From: Legionella beliardensis
GTDB taxonomy: Bacteria > Pseudomonadota > Gammaproteobacteria > Legionellales > Legionellaceae
NCBI RefSeq assembly: GCF_900452395.1
Contig: NZ_UGNV01000001.1
Span: 2,839,501-2,903,500 of the forward strand
Length of the DNA stretch: 64,000 nt
Reading direction: 5' to 3'
Part shown: one piece after another, positions 20,281 to 26,940 of the stretch
How positions within the stretch are numbered: the first letter of the stretch is position 1
Layout of the letters: each line of letters opens with the position of its first letter
The notes under the pieces: generated by a model
Databases searched by the model: none
Seen by the model: only the letters and a program-made list of their open reading frames with translations
Told to the model about the DNA's origin: nothing
Made by a program: the position numbers and the translations under genes

Positions 20281-20325
20281 TGGTCGGGACGGAAGGATTT
20301 GAACCTTCGACCACTAGCACCCCAT
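20281..20325. repeat. attL: truncated 3' copy of tRNA-Pro(GGG)
   Basis: 45 bases identical to 26864-26908. The match ends abruptly within the anticodon stem (TC here versus GC in the intact gene), so this copy cannot make a tRNA. Confidence 0.92.
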
Positions 20326-20494: not shown

Positions 20495-21730
20495 ATGGAA
20501 AGACATTTTACGGATGCTTATATCAAAGCACTAAAACCTCGTTCTGTACGTTACGAAGAATTTAAAGATGGCGGGTTTGGAATTCGAGTTACGCCTAAAG
20601 GACTTAAAATATGGATATATCGCTACAAAATAAATGGGCAACGGCATTTCATCACTCTAGGCTATTACCCGGCTATGAGCTTATCAGAGGCTAAGAAGCG
20701 CTTTATTGATTTAAGTGATATGCGCCATGGTGCTATTAACCCTAAAGACCATCTTGAAGAAGCAAAACAAAAAGAGCAGCAAACCATAAAAAATTTAATG
20801 CTAAACTGGTACAAGAGCTATATTGAAAAACATCGTGCTCAGCCCCAACAAATCTGGCAACTCATCAAAGCAGATATTATCCCTCTTCTTGGTGATAAAA
20901 AGCTTGAAACTTTAAAGACTAGAGAAATCACCCAAGCATTAGATAAAATTGTAGACCGTGGTGCACCTATTCATGCCAATAAAGTTTTAAGCACACTTAA
21001 GCAAGCCTTTAATTATGCCGTAAGTCGCGGCGAGATGATGAATAATCCTGCCATGAGCATTCGTTCACGAGACATTGGCGGATTAGAGAAAGCAAGAGAG
21101 CGGTATTTATCACTCGACGAAATTAAAACCCTATGGCAATTTTTAGAAAGTGAAGAGCACGATACTTCCATCCAAATTAGAAGCGCTCTAAAAATCATCC
21201 TGCTTACCGGCGTACGTACGGGTGAAATCAGAGTAGCTAAATGGTCAGAGTTTGATTTTGAAAATTCCTTATGGACTATTCCTGCTGAGCATACTAAAAC
21301 TAATATCACAATGCGCATTCATTTAAGTGAAATGACCAAAAAGGTCTTATTAGAACTTCAAGAATACAGTGACTCAGATTATGTCATTACAGGTGTTGAT
21401 GAGCGTAGTCCTTTATCAGATAAAGCCATGCCAAGAGCTGTAATTAGGATTCAATCTAGAGTAGGCATTCCTCACTGGACAGCACATGATCTTCGCCGCA
21501 CCTTTGCAACTCAACTTGGCGAAGCCCTGCATATTGATCCAGTAGTTATAGAAAAATGCTTGGGTCATAAAATGCCTAAGATCATGGCCACCTACAATAA
21601 AAATGAAATGTTACCACAAAGAAAAGAGGCATTGGATCGCTGGGCCACGTTTATTGAAAGCATATTACAAGATAATATTATTCCTATTCATACCGGGAAA
21701 TCAGGTAACAATTTATTATATGCTAATTAA
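20495..21730 (+). CDS. int: Tyrosine recombinase/integrase (DUF4102 arm-binding type)
   Basis: The 411-aa P4-like integrase has an N-terminal arm-DNA-binding DUF4102 domain (about 5-85), a SAM-like core-binding domain (about 95-190) and a catalytic domain (about 205-385). The catalytic residues are in place: R241 (GVRTGE), K268 (HTKT), H331 and R334 (HDLRR), H358 (LGHK) and nucleophile Y367 (MATYNK). It would integrate and excise the element at tRNA-Pro(GGG). The start follows attL by 169 bases. The C-terminal tail (IIPIHTGKSGNNL) is not conserved in the family. Confidence 0.95.
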   Translation: MERHFTDAYIKALKPRSVRYEEFKDGGFGIRVTPKGLKIWIYRYKINGQRHFITLGYYPAMSLSEAKKRFIDLSDMRHGAINPKDHLEEAKQKEQQTIKNLMLNWYKSYIEKHRAQPQQIWQLIKADIIPLLGDKKLETLKTREITQALDKIVDRGAPIHANKVLSTLKQAFNYAVSRGEMMNNPAMSIRSRDIGGLEKARERYLSLDEIKTLWQFLESEEHDTSIQIRSALKIILLTGVRTGEIRVAKWSEFDFENSLWTIPAEHTKTNITMRIHLSEMTKKVLLELQEYSDSDYVITGVDERSPLSDKAMPRAVIRIQSRVGIPHWTAHDLRRTFATQLGEALHIDPVVIEKCLGHKMPKIMATYNKNEMLPQRKEALDRWATFIESILQDNIIPIHTGKSGNNLLYAN

Positions 21731-21762: not shown

Positions 21763-21828
21763 TTGTACATTTCTTATAAATCAGACATAATCTCACCAGT
21801 TATAAATAAATGGTGAGGATTTGTCTGA
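21763..21828 (+). promoter_or_regulatory. abiE promoter with an 18-bp inverted-repeat operator
   Basis: Arms TCAGACATAATCTCACCA (21781-21798) and TGGTGAGGATTTGTCTGA (21811-21828) are inverted repeats, perfect in the outer 7 and inner 6 bases, with a 12-base spacer. A CATAAT -10 (21786-21791) with TTGTAC 17 bases upstream (21763-21768) lies in the left arm. AbiEi antitoxins are known to repress their own operon by binding inverted repeats, so this is the likely autoregulatory site. Confidence 0.65.
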
Positions 21829-21830
21829 TT

Positions 21831-22427
21831 ATGGCTAATAAAGATCCGGAGGCCGTTTTTCGGCAATACGGCGGACAACTTAGAATGAGCGACGCACTAA
21901 AAAACGGTATAACGCGTTATATGCTCTATTCTCTAAGAGATAAAGGAAAGATAGAGCAAATTAGCAGAGGCGTATACCGACTCACTAACCTTCCACCACT
22001 AAGTAACCAAGATCTGGCTACAGTAAGTCTTCGCTTTCCTAACGCAGTTATTTGCCTTACATCAGCTCTGTCTTATCACGATCTAACAACACAAATACCA
22101 CATTTTATTTCTATAGCTGTACCTAGAGGAGCTTATCTTCCTAACCTCTCTTACCCTCCTATACAAAATCACCGTTTTTCCAAAAGCGCTTACCATGCAG
22201 GGATAGAAGAACATAATATTGATGAGGTCGTGGTGAAAATCTATTCTGCTGAAAAAACGATTGCTGACTGTTTTAAATATAGAAATAAAATCGGCATGGA
22301 TATAGTACTAGAAGCACTAAAATTTTACCGCGCCCGAAAACAATTTAATCTACAGGCGCTCCTTAAATACGCCGAACTTTGTAGAGTTGAAAAGGTTATG
22401 GCGCCTTACCTGGAAACGATTATATGA
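21831..22427 (+). CDS. abiEi: AbiEi-family antitoxin/transcriptional repressor
   Basis: The protein is about 198 aa: an N-terminal winged helix (QYGGQLRMSDALKNGITRYMLYSLRDKGKIEQISRGVYRL) followed by the AbiEi C-terminal domain (FPNAVICLTSALSYHDLTTQIP ... YSAEKTIADCFKYRNKIG). It is the antitoxin of a type IV toxin-antitoxin system that counters AbiEii without binding it and represses transcription. Start chosen at ATG 21831 because the earlier ATG at 21810 lies inside the operator and GGTGAGGA precedes 21831. The stop overlaps the start of the toxin gene by 4 bases. Confidence 0.87.
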   Translation: MANKDPEAVFRQYGGQLRMSDALKNGITRYMLYSLRDKGKIEQISRGVYRLTNLPPLSNQDLATVSLRFPNAVICLTSALSYHDLTTQIPHFISIAVPRGAYLPNLSYPPIQNHRFSKSAYHAGIEEHNIDEVVVKIYSAEKTIADCFKYRNKIGMDIVLEALKFYRARKQFNLQALLKYAELCRVEKVMAPYLETII

Positions 22428-23329
22428 AGCCACCACAAAATGTTGCTGCATCGATTCGACAACGCTTATTAAATTACTCTAAAGCTCATCAAAGACCATT
22501 TATTGAAATCCTACAATATTATGCAATGGAGCGATTCCTCTATCGTTTATCGCTATCTCCCTACAAAGATCAATTTATATTAAAAGGTGCCTTGATGCTA
22601 AGGATATGGAATGCACCCATATCAAGGCCAACGATGGATATTGATATGCTAGGGAAAACAAGTAATGAAGAAGCCAATATTTTTCAGCAAATGAAGGAAA
22701 TACTTTCACTTGATGTGATAACCGATGGGCTAGTTTTTGATATAACATCACTTACAACTGAACGCATTAAAGAAGATGCCGACTATCAAGGTATCCGAGT
22801 GCTGTTTAAAGGTAATTTAGAAACGGCTAAGATTCATATGCAAATAGATATTGGTTTTGGCGATATCGTTTATCCCATTCCTGAAAAAGCAACAATGCCC
22901 ACCCTTTTAGATCTCCCTGCGCCTAAACTTTTAACTTATAGCCGTGAAACAGCTATTGCTGAAAAGTTTGAAGCGATGATTAAGTTAGGTATCCTTAATA
23001 GTCGGATGAAAGATTTTTATGATATTTGGATGTTATCTCGGCAATTTAATTTTACAGGGACTGAGCTTGCTGAAGCTATTCGCCTAACGTTTAAAAATCG
23101 CGGTACTACTTTACCAACTAAAGATGAACTTTTTACAGAGCAATTTATCCAATCCAAGCAAATTCAATGGACAGCTTTTACAAAGCGACTTAACCAAGAA
23201 CATATACCAACTCAATTTCATGAGATTGTAGCAGATATACAATCTTTTCTATCCCCAATTGCCGCTGCTCTCACTAGTCAAAACCCGACACCTAAGCTAT
23301 GGAATAATTCGGATAAATGGACATCATAA
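22424..23329 (+). CDS. abiEii: AbiEii-family nucleotidyltransferase toxin
   Basis: The 301-aa protein is a DNA-polymerase-beta-superfamily nucleotidyltransferase. Motif I is LKGALMLRIW (K54-G55) with catalytic RPTMDIDML (D72, D74), followed by later conserved SRETAIAEKFEAMIKLG and MKDFYDIW. AbiEii toxins transfer nucleotides, probably to tRNA acceptor ends, and cause growth arrest or abortive infection. The gene is translationally coupled to abiEi (ATGA overlap). In the element it may serve both stabilisation and phage defence; both roles are inferred. Confidence 0.9.
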   Translation: MKPPQNVAASIRQRLLNYSKAHQRPFIEILQYYAMERFLYRLSLSPYKDQFILKGALMLRIWNAPISRPTMDIDMLGKTSNEEANIFQQMKEILSLDVITDGLVFDITSLTTERIKEDADYQGIRVLFKGNLETAKIHMQIDIGFGDIVYPIPEKATMPTLLDLPAPKLLTYSRETAIAEKFEAMIKLGILNSRMKDFYDIWMLSRQFNFTGTELAEAIRLTFKNRGTTLPTKDELFTEQFIQSKQIQWTAFTKRLNQEHIPTQFHEIVADIQSFLSPIAAALTSQNPTPKLWNNSDKWTS

Positions 23330-24102: not shown

Positions 24103-24423
24103 GTGGATTTTTTATTTATTAATAGAAGAGAATTGGACGCCTTAATAGAGTTACCTCTCATCCAACGCGTCGTTTATATAATGGGAATTCGGCCTTATAT
24201 GGATAGGGCAACTTTTATTGTAGGCATTAAGCGTAGGATAAGTTACCAATCGCTAAGAGAAACCTGTTATGTCGCGCCTATTCCCGGTGTTAAAGCAGAA
24301 TATCCTAGCTATCAACAGATGAAACGAGTAGTGAAATCATTAGCGAGAGTTGGGCTTTTAGAAATTCGATCGACGCCGAGGAATTTGATTGTGAGGTGTT
24401 TGCTTGCGGATACGAAAGCTTAG
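24103..24423 (+). CDS. Small hypothetical protein, possible winged-helix DNA-binding/replication protein
   Basis: The 106-aa protein starts at GTG 24103 with GAGGAA 6 bases upstream. The C-terminal half reads like a winged helix (YPSYQQMKRVVKSLARVGLLEIRSTPRNLIVRCLL), and the basic middle part (GIKRRISYQSLRE) could contact DNA. I do not recognise a named family. Its position right after the iteron/DnaA-box region suggests replication control or regulation of the element. It is monocistronic. Confidence 0.65.
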   Translation: MDFLFINRRELDALIELPLIQRVVYIMGIRPYMDRATFIVGIKRRISYQSLRETCYVAPIPGVKAEYPSYQQMKRVVKSLARVGLLEIRSTPRNLIVRCLLADTKA

Positions 24424-24637: not shown

Positions 24638-25549
24638 ATGAATGATTCAACTACTAATTCTACAGAAATAAATGATGATAACTTACCAAAATATGATCTA
24701 TCTAAATTAGAACACTTATTTAAATTAATACGCAATGAAGACAGCAATGTAATCAAGCATTATATTATTGAACATCTAAATAAGTTTCTAGGAAATAAAA
24801 AATATTTTTACCTTTTTTTATATAAGCCAGAGGAGTCAATAACTAACTTTGATTCTGATAGGATTTATTGGGCTACAGATAATAAAAAAACTCAAGATAT
24901 TTTATTAATAATGCATAGCTTAGGTGGTCTAATTGAACCGGCATACTTTATATCTAAAATTTGTAAGGAGCAATCAAAGAAGAAATTTATAGTTGTAATT
25001 CCAAGTAGAGCTAAATCTGCTGCTACTTTAATAGCATTAGGAGCAGACGAAATTCATATGGGCTTATTAAGTGAACTCGGGCCGATAGATCCTCAAATTA
25101 ATAAGAACCCTGCTTTAAGCCTGAGTAGTGCGTTAGAATGTATTTGTAATCTCACAGAAAAATTTCCCAATACTTCAAGTATGTTTGCAGAATATTTGGC
25201 TAAAACATTGCCCTTACAACAATTAGGTTACTTTGAGAGAATTTCAGATTCAGCTCAACATTACGCTGTACGGTTATTAGAAAGTAAAAAAGAAATTTTA
25301 AAAAATAGTCCACATGCTATTGCCCAAAGGCTAGTCTATGAATATAAAGATCACTCTTTTGTAATAGATAAAGATGAGGCCACCGAAATATTTGGCGAAA
25401 AAGTTATTAAATTGAATACTGATGAATATAAGGCTGGCTCAGAAGTTTATCATTTTCTTGAAAAAGTAAGCCTCATCTTAAAATATGAAAAGAAGCTAGA
25501 TATAAATATTGTTGGTTCAGTTGATCAGATAAATTTTACAAATTGTTAA
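24638..25549 (+). CDS. SDH-type Clp-fold serine protease
   Basis: The 303-aa protein has a ClpP/crotonase-type fold in the middle (about 75-200): LLIMHSLGGLIEPAYFISKICK, then VIPSRAKSAATLIALGADEI with the likely nucleophile S127, then SELGPIDPQI with D151. This matches the SDH_protease family of stand-alone Clp-fold proteases. It has no signal peptide or TM segment and appears cytosolic, without an ATPase partner in the window. ATG at 24638 follows AAGGAAA. Similar proteases occur in mobile islands, so phage defence or toxin control is a reasonable but unproven role. The C-terminus (about 205-303) is unassigned. Confidence 0.8.
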   Translation: MNDSTTNSTEINDDNLPKYDLSKLEHLFKLIRNEDSNVIKHYIIEHLNKFLGNKKYFYLFLYKPEESITNFDSDRIYWATDNKKTQDILLIMHSLGGLIEPAYFISKICKEQSKKKFIVVIPSRAKSAATLIALGADEIHMGLLSELGPIDPQINKNPALSLSSALECICNLTEKFPNTSSMFAEYLAKTLPLQQLGYFERISDSAQHYAVRLLESKKEILKNSPHAIAQRLVYEYKDHSFVIDKDEATEIFGEKVIKLNTDEYKAGSEVYHFLEKVSLILKYEKKLDINIVGSVDQINFTNC

Positions 25550-25935: not shown

Positions 25936-26136
25936 TCACCCTTTTTTTACCCTTAATGGATTACTACTACTATCATCAAGCTTTACCGAGTCTTTATGAA
26001 AATAACCTTTAGATTTATTATTTCCGTCAAACCAGATACATTCTATTTGCTCCTCTTTTCCTAAATATGAAATTGTCATTCTAGGGCCCCCAGATTTTAA
26101 TTTAACCACATCTCCAACTTTAAGTTGTGTCTCCAT
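25936..26136 (-). CDS. DUF2158/YodC-family small protein
   Basis: The 66-aa protein begins METQLKVGDVVKLKSGGPRMTI and contains the family's IWFDG core. The family is small, beta-rich and of unknown function, and common in mobile DNA. Start chosen at ATG 26136 because AGGAG stands 5 bases upstream; the longer frame to 26175 would span that ribosome binding site. It is convergent with the Clp-fold protease, and a long palindrome (26184-26222) lies in its promoter region. Confidence 0.8.
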   Translation of the reverse strand: METQLKVGDVVKLKSGGPRMTISYLGKEEQIECIWFDGNNKSKGYFHKDSVKLDDSSSNPLRVKKG

Positions 26137-26183
26137 TAGAACTCCTGTCAATTTTAATAATATAACTATAGACAATAATTTTA

Positions 26184-26222
26184 GTTATATGCGTCACTGC
26201 TTAAAGCAGTGACGCACATAAC
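26184..26222. repeat. 39-bp near-perfect palindrome
   Basis: Arms GTTATATGCGTCACTGCTT and AAGCAGTGACGCACATAAC pair over 19 bp with one mismatch and a single-base centre. It lies 48 bases upstream of the DUF2158 start, with no T-run, so it is more likely an operator, recombination site or replication hairpin than a terminator. Confidence 0.75.
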
Positions 26223-26298: not shown

Positions 26299-26350
26299 TT
26301 CTCTCTTAAACTGATTGTCTATAGAGCAACATTTTGCTAATTTCTAATTA

Positions 26351-26403
26351 AGCATAACTGATGAGCCTGGGCAGTTCAGGCGAAACCTTTTAGGTCTTAT
26401 GCT
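26351..26403 (+). ncRNA. Type I hammerhead self-cleaving ribozyme
   Basis: All hammerhead parts are in order. Stem I 5' strand AGCATAA (26351-26357) and core CTGATGA (26358-26364) come first. Stem II is GCCTG/CAGGC (26365-26369, 26377-26381) with a 7-base loop and the canonical G10.1-C11.1 pair. GAAA (26382-26385) follows. Stem III is ACC/GGT (26385-26387, 26393-26395) with loop TTTTA. Cleavage-site C17 is at 26396 within GTC, and stem I 3' strand TTATGCT (26397-26403) pairs perfectly over 7 bp. Stem I is the open one, hence type I. Predicted cleavage is between 26396 and 26397. No conserved core residue deviates. Function in the element is unknown. Confidence 0.88.
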
Positions 26404-26745
26404 AAGCCACCTTGTCCCTTAACCTAGTGGCTGGACGTTTAAGTTGGGAAACCCTTCATGGATACCTGCCGTTCGGCAGCGTAATTTTAGAAACTTACTG
26501 TCATTACAATTTTATGACCTAGTCAGGCGCTTAGAATAATTCTTTGCCTATCTATTAATCTATCTGAAAGTAAAAAGGAGAAAGTCACTAAAACCCGCTG
26601 TAGACCGGCCCATCGTTTGCCTTATAGCGTTTGATTTGCCCCTAACTTGAGCCTTGCGGATAAAACCGGGTATCGCCTTTGAGTGAGCCGCTCGACCAAC
26701 ACTAAACCAAAGCCAGGGCAAATAATTTATGATTCAAGAAAAATT
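26404..26745. other. Structured, GC-richer non-coding region downstream of the hammerhead
   Basis: Several stems follow the ribozyme: AGCCAC/GTGGCT (26405-26410, 26427-26432), GTTT/AAAC (26437-26440, 26449-26452) and the tight CTGCCG-TT-CGGCAG (26466-26479). Farther on, ATTTGCCC (26634-26641) pairs with GGGCAAAT (26716-26723) around about 74 bases that hold GAG/CTC and GATA/TATC minor stems. No open frame of note. GC content is visibly higher than in the rest of the element. A functional RNA, a transfer origin or a replication hairpin region are the options. Confidence 0.5.
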
Positions 26746-26771: not shown

Positions 26772-26795
26772 AAAGTACACCCAGAAGTACACCTA
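26772..26795 (+). repeat. Paired AGTACACC motifs, right end of element
   Basis: 24 bases identical to 20454-20477, located 68 bases before the attR core. Probable integrase arm-type or excisionase site. Confidence 0.6.
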
Positions 26796-26863
26796 GAGAA
26801 ATTATTGACTTAAATGAGATTTAAATTTTATGATTCAACTTATTGATTTTAAATGGAATTAAC

Positions 26864-26908
26864 TGGTCGGGACGGAAGGATTTGAACCTTCGACCACTAG
26901 CACCCCAT
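26864..26908. repeat. attR: core repeat within the intact tRNA-Pro gene
   Basis: Identical to attL (20281-20325). Integration replaced the 3' part of the tRNA by an identical copy, so the tRNA remains intact here. Confidence 0.92.
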
Positions 26909-26940
26909 GCTAGTGCGCTACCAGGCTGCGCTACGCCCCG
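26864..26940 (-). tRNA. proL: tRNA-Pro(GGG)
   Basis: The 77-nt tRNA has encoded CCA. Acceptor stem CGGGGCG pairs with CGTCCCG (one G-T pair), D-arm GCGCAGCCTGGTAGCGC, anticodon stem CTAGC/GCTAG with loop ATGGGGT (anticodon GGG), and T-loop GGTTCGAATCC. It reads proline codons CCC/CCU. It is the integration target of the element to its left. Confidence 0.95.

Follow-up and report, generated by a model that had tools for sequence, protein, structure and literature searches.

An intact type I hammerhead ribozyme, as judged from its sequence, is encoded at 26351-26403 on the plus strand of the Legionella beliardensis window analysed here (64,000 nucleotides of contig NZ_UGNV01000001.1, positions 2,839,501 to 2,903,500), inside a 6.6 kb island at a tRNA-Pro gene, as had been claimed in an initial annotation of this DNA. 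The hammerhead is directly preceded by a predicted promoter and is the first member of a cassette that continues on the same strand with a pseudoknot and the two Rfam RNAs RAGATH-32 and RAGATH-13 (Table 1). The coupling of these hammerheads to a promoter pattern appears to be what is new here. RiboJ, an engineered hammerhead insulator, places a hammerhead right behind a promoter and lets a structured element and a gene follow. Judging by its structure and covariation, the conserved cassette, the promoter pattern and the gene order in relatives, the block in L. beliardensis is rather probably a promoter-coupled ribozyme leader of the same kind that serves establishment genes, with the island in the window having kept the cassette without the gene.

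The hammerhead core consists of CUGANGA, GAAA and an NUH cleavage triplet. The window copy contains this core, with CTGATGA at 26358-26364 and GAAA at 26382-26385, and has three helices with both termini in stem I, where 26351-26357 (AGCATAA) pairs with 26397-26403 (TTATGCT) over 7 bp. Stem II comprises five pairs (26365-26369 with 26377-26381) and stem III spans 26386-26388 and 26392-26394 with the additional pair A26385-T26395. C17 corresponds to position 26396 and cleavage is therefore predicted between 26396 and 26397. The minimum fold of a 66-nt stretch is the hammerhead structure at -15.5 kcal/mol, an unremarkable energy that is equalled in 50 of 200 shuffles (z -0.70). The search with Rfam hammerhead models that had initially been proposed gave a divided answer: a permissive search of 1.3 kb returns Hammerhead_HH9 as the best match (E 1.1e-5), but its 31.7 bits remain below the cut-off of 52. 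At gathering level Rfam finds no hammerhead in the window, nor in the 20 and 11 loci that were scanned, and RF00163 has no match in the L. beliardensis genome and a single weak one, below cut-off, among the 53 genomes searched. For the whole clade these scores are taken to reflect a limit of the Rfam hammerhead models. Model R1, which was built from relatives, has a single match in the window (26344-26410, plus strand, 82.5 bits, E 2.9e-19), the window copy being itself one of the 55 rows used to build it. Fold energy alone being unremarkable, it was on this match and on the covariation among relatives that a chance origin of the structure was rejected.

Sequences entered the set of relatives only if they had CTGANGA, a GAAA-like box and six pairs in stem I; this gave 70 distinct sequences, 55 of which were aligned. 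Because of this preselection the pairing of stem I (100%) and part of the constancy of the core arise by construction; stems II and III lie outside the selection criteria. Among the 55 distinct hammerheads 98.5% of the paired cells hold standard pairs, 11 of the 15 pairs are changed on both sides, and the covariation score is 0.454, as against 0.198 for shuffles and no more than 0.091 when the partners are slid. A further 29 more diverse hammerheads, second copies and other families included, show 97.5% paired cells and double changes in nine of 14 pairs; this last figure is matched by 22 of 500 shuffles and the other measures by none. The core, whose lack of conservation in related elements had been named as one result that would refute the claim, is invariant in both alignments, partly through the preselection. 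The base preceding the six-pair stem I, located about 7 nt past the -10 box, is an A in 55/55 and 29/29 rows, and the hammerhead core is not known to demand such a constant A.

Of 94 distinct hammerheads, 92 are preceded by the pattern TTGnnn-N16-18-TAnnnT, whose -10 box falls between -26 and -17 relative to the core; the pattern is found in 72/74 first hammerheads, 16/16 second ones and 4/4 in other families; the locus L097 was left out of this test due to its changed core. By comparison, 200 dinucleotide-Markov resamplings gave a mean of 1.34 and a maximum of 5 of 94. In the profile of the 72 first hammerheads TTG and TTTGnTA are prominent and the spacer is poorly conserved. A further check, which overlaps with the first set, found the pattern at 12 of 15 hammerheads, L143 among them. 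Since the pattern lies just 5' of the hammerhead, the predicted first base of the transcript, A26351, is at the same time the first base of stem I. A 5'-terminal ribozyme of a leader RNA, with the predicted promoter directly before it, is better supported than the roles in replication, excision control or antisense that had been suggested initially, for which no support was found.

Behind the hammerhead, a helix (AGCCAC/GTGGCT, 26405-26410 with 26427-26432) encloses a loop, UUCCCUAA, that is able to pair with GGGAA before RAGATH-32 is reached, and in the window this second helix consists of four pairs (TCCC, 26415-26418, with GGGA, 26446-26449). The putative pseudoknot is moderately supported by the alignment: 93.5% of the cells are paired compared to 91.3% in shuffles, 17 cells are double-changed compared to 3.7, and the covariation score is 0.145 compared to 0.116, with double changes in two of its five pairs. 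No excess of further pair types over shuffles was observed, as 391 of 500 reach the observed number. The Rfam model of RAGATH-32 begins at the 3' side of the first helix and therefore omits it, so that RAGATH-32 is extended here in the 5' direction by a helix and a pseudoknot. The same pseudoknot element is also present behind second hammerheads (see below).

The L. beliardensis genome holds five RAGATH-13 matches, three of them above cut-off, and each of 11 genus genomes carries at least one, 22 in all. With distances counted from the RAGATH-13 motif as anchor, a hammerhead core motif lies 5' of all 22 copies, at 322-378 nt in 20 and at about 771 nt in two. Among the 20 of these loci that were given to Rfam, RAGATH-32 scores above cut-off in 16, RAGATH-13 in 17 and a hammerhead family in none. 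A pattern search of a genome collection yielded 82 stretches, 80 of which were obtained as loci; two archaeal matches (L058, L107) contain nothing of the cassette and were dropped before counting, leaving 78, some of which stem from the same genomes as the 22 copies. For 76 loci the upstream sequence measures 420 nt or more, and in 74 of them R1 places a hammerhead next to RAGATH-13; many of these rows also went into the building of R1. One degenerate copy (L135, G023:C1:2085774) retains a hammerhead-like CTGACAA and RAGATH-32 and lacks RAGATH-13. Across the class, R1 matches four of 369 genomes, from three other families and with five loci, and RAGATH-13 and RAGATH-32 each match three of the 369, all within the same family. 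Across the phylum (398 genomes) model R2 found two weak matches outside the L. beliardensis genome (32.1 and 31.5 bits), which were not counted because one is without the promoter pattern and the other without the core motif. A phage origin was rejected, as phage records gave no match for 26330-26740 and viral contigs no exact pattern match. Outside Legionella, relatives of the recombinase occur on plasmids; five of 173 such records were retrieved (L168-L172), and no hammerhead was found in these five.

Similarity to a tyrosine-recombinase-like gene starts right behind RAGATH-13 in 74/78 loci, and in larger loci this gene is next in 19/21, in 12 of those 19 as a tandem pair. In L. adelaidensis (L131, 12396-14091) the first protein of the pair matches N-terminal integrase domains only and the second also matches Integrase_1 (Pfam); the pair could combine an inactive partner with an active one. 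The cassette of L. adelaidensis is located behind traD, with one opposite-strand gene between, and ardA lies further on. A second hammerhead was detected in 16 of 100 loci searched, about 2.2-5.9 kb from the first and on the same strand, and as most of these loci are 3-8 kb long more may be cut off. ssb or ardA is located within about 600 nt of 11 of the 14 second hammerheads examined, and the other three loci end too soon; one ssb and the ardA of L131 were called via Pfam, the rest by eye. The locus L036 contains four hammerheads. In L. israelensis, a 47-kb plasmid carries two: the recombinase pair follows one of them and ssb the other. In the five loci of other gammaproteobacterial families the hammerhead precedes ardA (L149, 1.9e-37), ssb (L145, 4e-21) or a protein that aligns to the first recombinase-like protein with 26% over 253 residues (L144); of the remaining two, one is truncated where the contig ends and the other is without ardA, ssb or a recombinase-like gene. 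An antisense role towards the tRNA was rejected as a general role, since it would be particular to the window island and most loci have a recombinase-like gene after the cassette: among 22 short loci a tRNA lies within about 1.5 kb only in that of the window, and among larger loci a tRNA is found within 20 kb in 11 of 20.

It is proposed that a sigma-70-type promoter (-35 at 26315, -10 at 26338) would start an RNA at A26351, the first 53 nt of which would be the hammerhead. Self-cutting after C26396 would shed a 46-nt fragment bearing the 5'-triphosphate, and the remaining RNA would carry a 5'-hydroxyl, about eight unpaired bases, the pseudoknot, RAGATH-32 and RAGATH-13. RppH and RNase E act on 5'-phosphorylated ends, and 5'-OH ends evade both RppH and the 5'-sensing of RNase E. 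A structured 5'-OH end would be expected to result in a long-lived and uniform leader, as it does in RiboJ, and this would suit genes needed soon after transfer. The leader would precede the tyrosine-recombinase-like gene in most relatives, while some elements would have a second leader of hammerhead and pseudoknot at the head of an ssb/ardA operon. According to a study of plasmid leading regions, ssb and ardA are leading-region genes that are required once a new cell has been entered (PMC11541004). In the window island, which has no recombinase-like gene behind the cassette, the cassette may act alone or, in the circular island, allow read-through across attP into the integrase gene, and the hammerhead may have a role when the circular form is excised or reintegrated.

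Several observations weigh against a promoter-coupled leader. The promoter pattern was spotted by eye and then tested on sequences that are partly the same, mostly related and not independent. A freer best-score promoter scan separates only weakly (8.26 compared to a shuffle mean of 7.82 and 8.05 for the highest of 50 shuffles), for which reason the fixed pattern was tested instead, and in the further check the pattern is absent at L036 10595, at L167 5693 and at the doubtful match L160. The window hexamers are weak by consensus, with 4/6 and 3/6 matching positions, and a general promoter scan of the window did not call the predicted promoter. Two loci (L094 and L100) are without the hammerhead and a third (L097) has a changed core, and all three have kept RAGATH-13. 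The L144 protein has no Pfam match, and between the cassette and attR in the window there is no gene on the leader strand. The loop of stem II is partly conserved, and if the transcript starts at A26351 its 5'-side partner in the loop-loop contact between stems I and II is absent; the missing stem I loop makes the speed of cleavage at low magnesium uncertain. Finally, equilibrium prediction for the full 26351-26723 RNA mispairs the hammerhead with RAGATH-13, so that activity would depend on folding during transcription.

The hammerhead is kept in five of six loci without a recombinase-like gene (the window, L030, L048, L117 and L118, not L094), and three of these, the window, L048 and L030, are islands with att repeats; in order of size such islands measure 6.4, 6.6 (that of the window) and 7.4 kb. 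As the cassette is kept without the gene, the block seems useful beyond leading it: it could act as a non-coding RNA, form part of a transfer origin or, in the window island, serve as an integrase promoter of the circular form. In a first alternative to the leader, the hammerhead would trim a trans-acting non-coding RNA (pseudoknot, RAGATH-32 and RAGATH-13) at its 5' end, and this RNA would serve as a scaffold or guide for recombinase-like or helper-element proteins, the leading of an mRNA being secondary. This explanation is rather unlikely. The retention of hammerhead and RAGATH-13 in small islands without the gene and the RAGATH-13 score well above cut-off in the window agree with it, and RAGATH-18 is described as a guide RNA for TnpB in a 2024 paper (PMC11061315). 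On the other hand, the second hammerhead-pseudoknot unit heads ssb or ardA at 11 loci, and neither RAGATH-13 nor RAGATH-32 was found behind any of these 11 hammerheads, while the recombinase-like similarity, counted from where the RAGATH-13 search motif starts, mostly sets in after 50-77 nt, as would be expected behind a leader.

About equally doubtful is a transfer origin with its leading region, extending from palindrome A to RAGATH-13, in which the palindrome would form a single-strand transfer hairpin and the small islands would be mobilised by a resident conjugative element. Palindrome A is an inverted repeat of 9 bp or more whose loop measures 3-15 nt, and 76 of the 82 distinct regions carry it at a near-fixed distance 5' of the hammerhead. 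As the loop length varies, a hairpin fits better than a protein-binding dyad of fixed spacing. The position of the L. adelaidensis block between traD and the recombinase pair with ardA beyond, a further block copy downstream of a coupling-protein gene in the L. beliardensis genome (L024), and the occurrence of the block on the three small islands with att repeats, where Pfam recognised no transfer gene among the genes tested (six in the window, six in L048 and four in L030), are all consistent with such an origin. Against it, no relaxase site is known for these elements, and the palindrome is absent as scored in six of the 82 regions, in two of them through a mobile element in the loop. This element, which encodes a 483-aa transposase-like protein (called by eye), occupies the palindrome A loop at two places of one genome; insertions are located in L037 (plus strand 14118, reverse strand 7381) and L038 (14114, 7385), and also in L018 and L022. 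Its own ends bear the same GCGTCACTGC 10-mer, and the insertions seem to target the hairpin. Upstream of position 5260 in L048, palindrome A and the TTTTGTCC motif are present twice, 163 bp apart.

The promoter Pcirc of ICEclc reportedly drives the integrase gene from across attP once the element is circular. A cassette promoter that acts in the same manner and only in the circular island is rather improbable. The geometry would permit it, as the two ends of the island carry the cassette (right) and int (left), both on the plus strand, and the same holds for L048 and, with a shortened int frame, for L118. However, int is on the opposite strand in L030, opposite-strand genes separate the cassette from attR in L048 and L118, and the other loci would be left unexplained. 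Still less probable is that the hammerheads dice long read-through transcripts wherever these are started, their closeness to a promoter being incidental. Some elements do carry two to four hammerheads on the same strand, and multiple hammerheads that cut polycistronic RNAs in Azorhizobium and Agrobacterium are reported in the 2011 survey (PMC3088659), but dicing needs neither the regular promoter spacing (92/94) nor the constant A at the predicted +1. Least of all is the window copy likely to be a non-functional remnant of a larger element, even if a larger element at the same tRNA-Pro (L033), with cassette and two recombinase-like genes, looks as if the window island had lost its right part, because the hammerhead core and stems are intact, RAGATH-13 and RAGATH-32 are above cut-off, the promoter pattern is retained and the hammerhead is kept in four other loci without the gene.

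The location of the hammerhead inside an integrative element at tRNA-Pro is borne out by the 45-bp perfect direct repeats, which derive from the tRNA end and enclose 6,583 bp at tRNA-Pro(ggg), together with the integrase gene. The hammerhead ends 460 bases before attR, and it follows two palindromes, the first of which is conserved, and precedes further stems that correspond to RAGATH-32 and RAGATH-13, all in agreement with the initial description. Pfam recognised no relaxase or type IV secretion genes among the six island genes tested. The 106-aa protein encoded at 24103-24423 has longer relatives of 244-274 aa upstream of the cassette in L033, L118 and L048. Near attR, tandem AAGTACACCCAG / AAGTACACCTAG sequences at 26773-26796 are possible arm sites of the integrase. 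In the larger element of L033 (G007) the tRNA is located about 7 kb further right. A circular 14.6-kb plasmid, plasmid III of L. fallonii (L130), carries, besides the cassette, genes for an integrase, an AAA ATPase and helicase, a single recombinase-like protein and a DUF927 protein, and could be an excised island.

Table 1. Features of the tRNA-Pro island and of its ribozyme cassette (window coordinates; a full stop marks features without strand)
Feature	Position	Strand	Evidence and remarks
Predicted promoter: TTGTCT, 17 nt, TAATTT, with TG before the second hexamer	26315..26343	+	Pattern in 92/94 upstream regions
Type I hammerhead ribozyme	26351..26403	+	Sequence reading, fold and covariation of relatives; A26351 is the predicted transcription start
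Pseudoknot (putative)	26405..26450	+	Alignment A2 and pair counts
RAGATH-32 RNA	26427..26503	+	Rfam RF02922, 55.6 bits, cut-off 41.8
RAGATH-13 RNA	26630..26723	+	Rfam RF02688, 92.8 bits, cut-off 80
Palindrome A, TGCGTCACTGC..GCAGTGACGCA	26190..26216	.	Inverted repeat conserved upstream of the hammerhead
Second inverted repeat, TTTTGTCC..GGACAAAA	26262..26298	.	Repeat of at least 8 bp at this place in 40/82 regions
attL, duplicating the final 45 bp of tRNA-Pro	20281..20325	.	Perfect direct repeat of 26864-26908
Tyrosine recombinase (island integrase)	20495..21730	+	Pfam Phage_integrase 7.4e-25, Arm-DNA-bind_3 1.7e-14
AbiEi/AbiEii type IV toxin-antitoxin pair, two cargo genes	21810..23329	+	Pfam AbiEi_4 8.7e-12, AbiEii 1.1e-46
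106-aa protein	24103..24423	+	No Pfam match; 71% identical to a 274-aa L048 protein across 103 residues
SDH-type serine protease-like protein, cargo	24638..25549	+	Pfam SDH_protease 8.2e-15
Small DUF2158 protein	25936..26175	-	Pfam DUF2158 1.2e-17
attR, 3' part of tRNA-Pro(ggg)	26864..26908	.	Gene 26864-26940 on the minus strand

The bacterial type I hammerheads of Rfam clan CL00010, as covered in the survey by Perreault et al. (2011, PMC3088659), share with the present clade the core, the three stems and an open stem I. The clade described here differs from them in scoring below the Rfam cut-offs, in having its predicted +1 at the first base of stem I, in the pseudoknot directly behind and in the two RAGATH RNAs that complete a fixed cassette. 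An association with ardA had been described before, as the same survey places ardA directly 3' of a hammerhead in three Legionella strains (PMC3088659). RAGATH-13 and RAGATH-32 appear here as consecutive parts of one hammerhead-led leader; in the 2024 paper the functions of the remaining 33 RAGATH families are called unknown (PMC11061315). RiboJ has the same layout of promoter (here a predicted one), hammerhead, structured element and gene, yet the present cassette is a natural one that resides in mobile elements. The Frpo single-strand promoters of plasmid leading regions serve ssb and other establishment genes and involve hairpins near the promoter, and the main text of the paper describing them makes no mention of a hammerhead or ribozyme (PMC11541004); in the present cassette, too, potential hairpins lie close to the predicted promoter. 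Among integrative and conjugative elements with TIGR03759/PFL_4695-type transfer genes, that of L. adelaidensis shares the cassette, the recombinase pair and ardA, whereas the window island is without a recognised transfer gene among its six genes (Pfam). Literature searches of partial coverage did not find RAGATH-13 by name, and, judged by title, those combining hammerheads with integrative and conjugative elements, start sites or mRNA stability, and integrases did not return a description of the arrangement.

Hundreds of bacterial hammerheads, many of them near integrase genes, had been recorded by 2011, when their precise functions were called unclear in the survey (PMC3088659). A hammerhead at the predicted transcription start, before the arrival genes of a conjugative element, would give such ribozymes a concrete and testable role, and the cassette places two RAGATH families into one putative leader of a clade that scores below the Rfam hammerhead cut-offs. 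Overall, it is suggested tentatively that this hammerhead clade may be dedicated to the establishment genes of conjugative and related elements, where it would form the first nucleotides of the transcript and convert a triphosphate mRNA into one with a 5'-OH and a pseudoknot at its head as a natural counterpart of RiboJ, and that in small passenger islands such as that of L. beliardensis the block of promoter, ribozyme and RNAs may be the only visible tie to conjugative elements.
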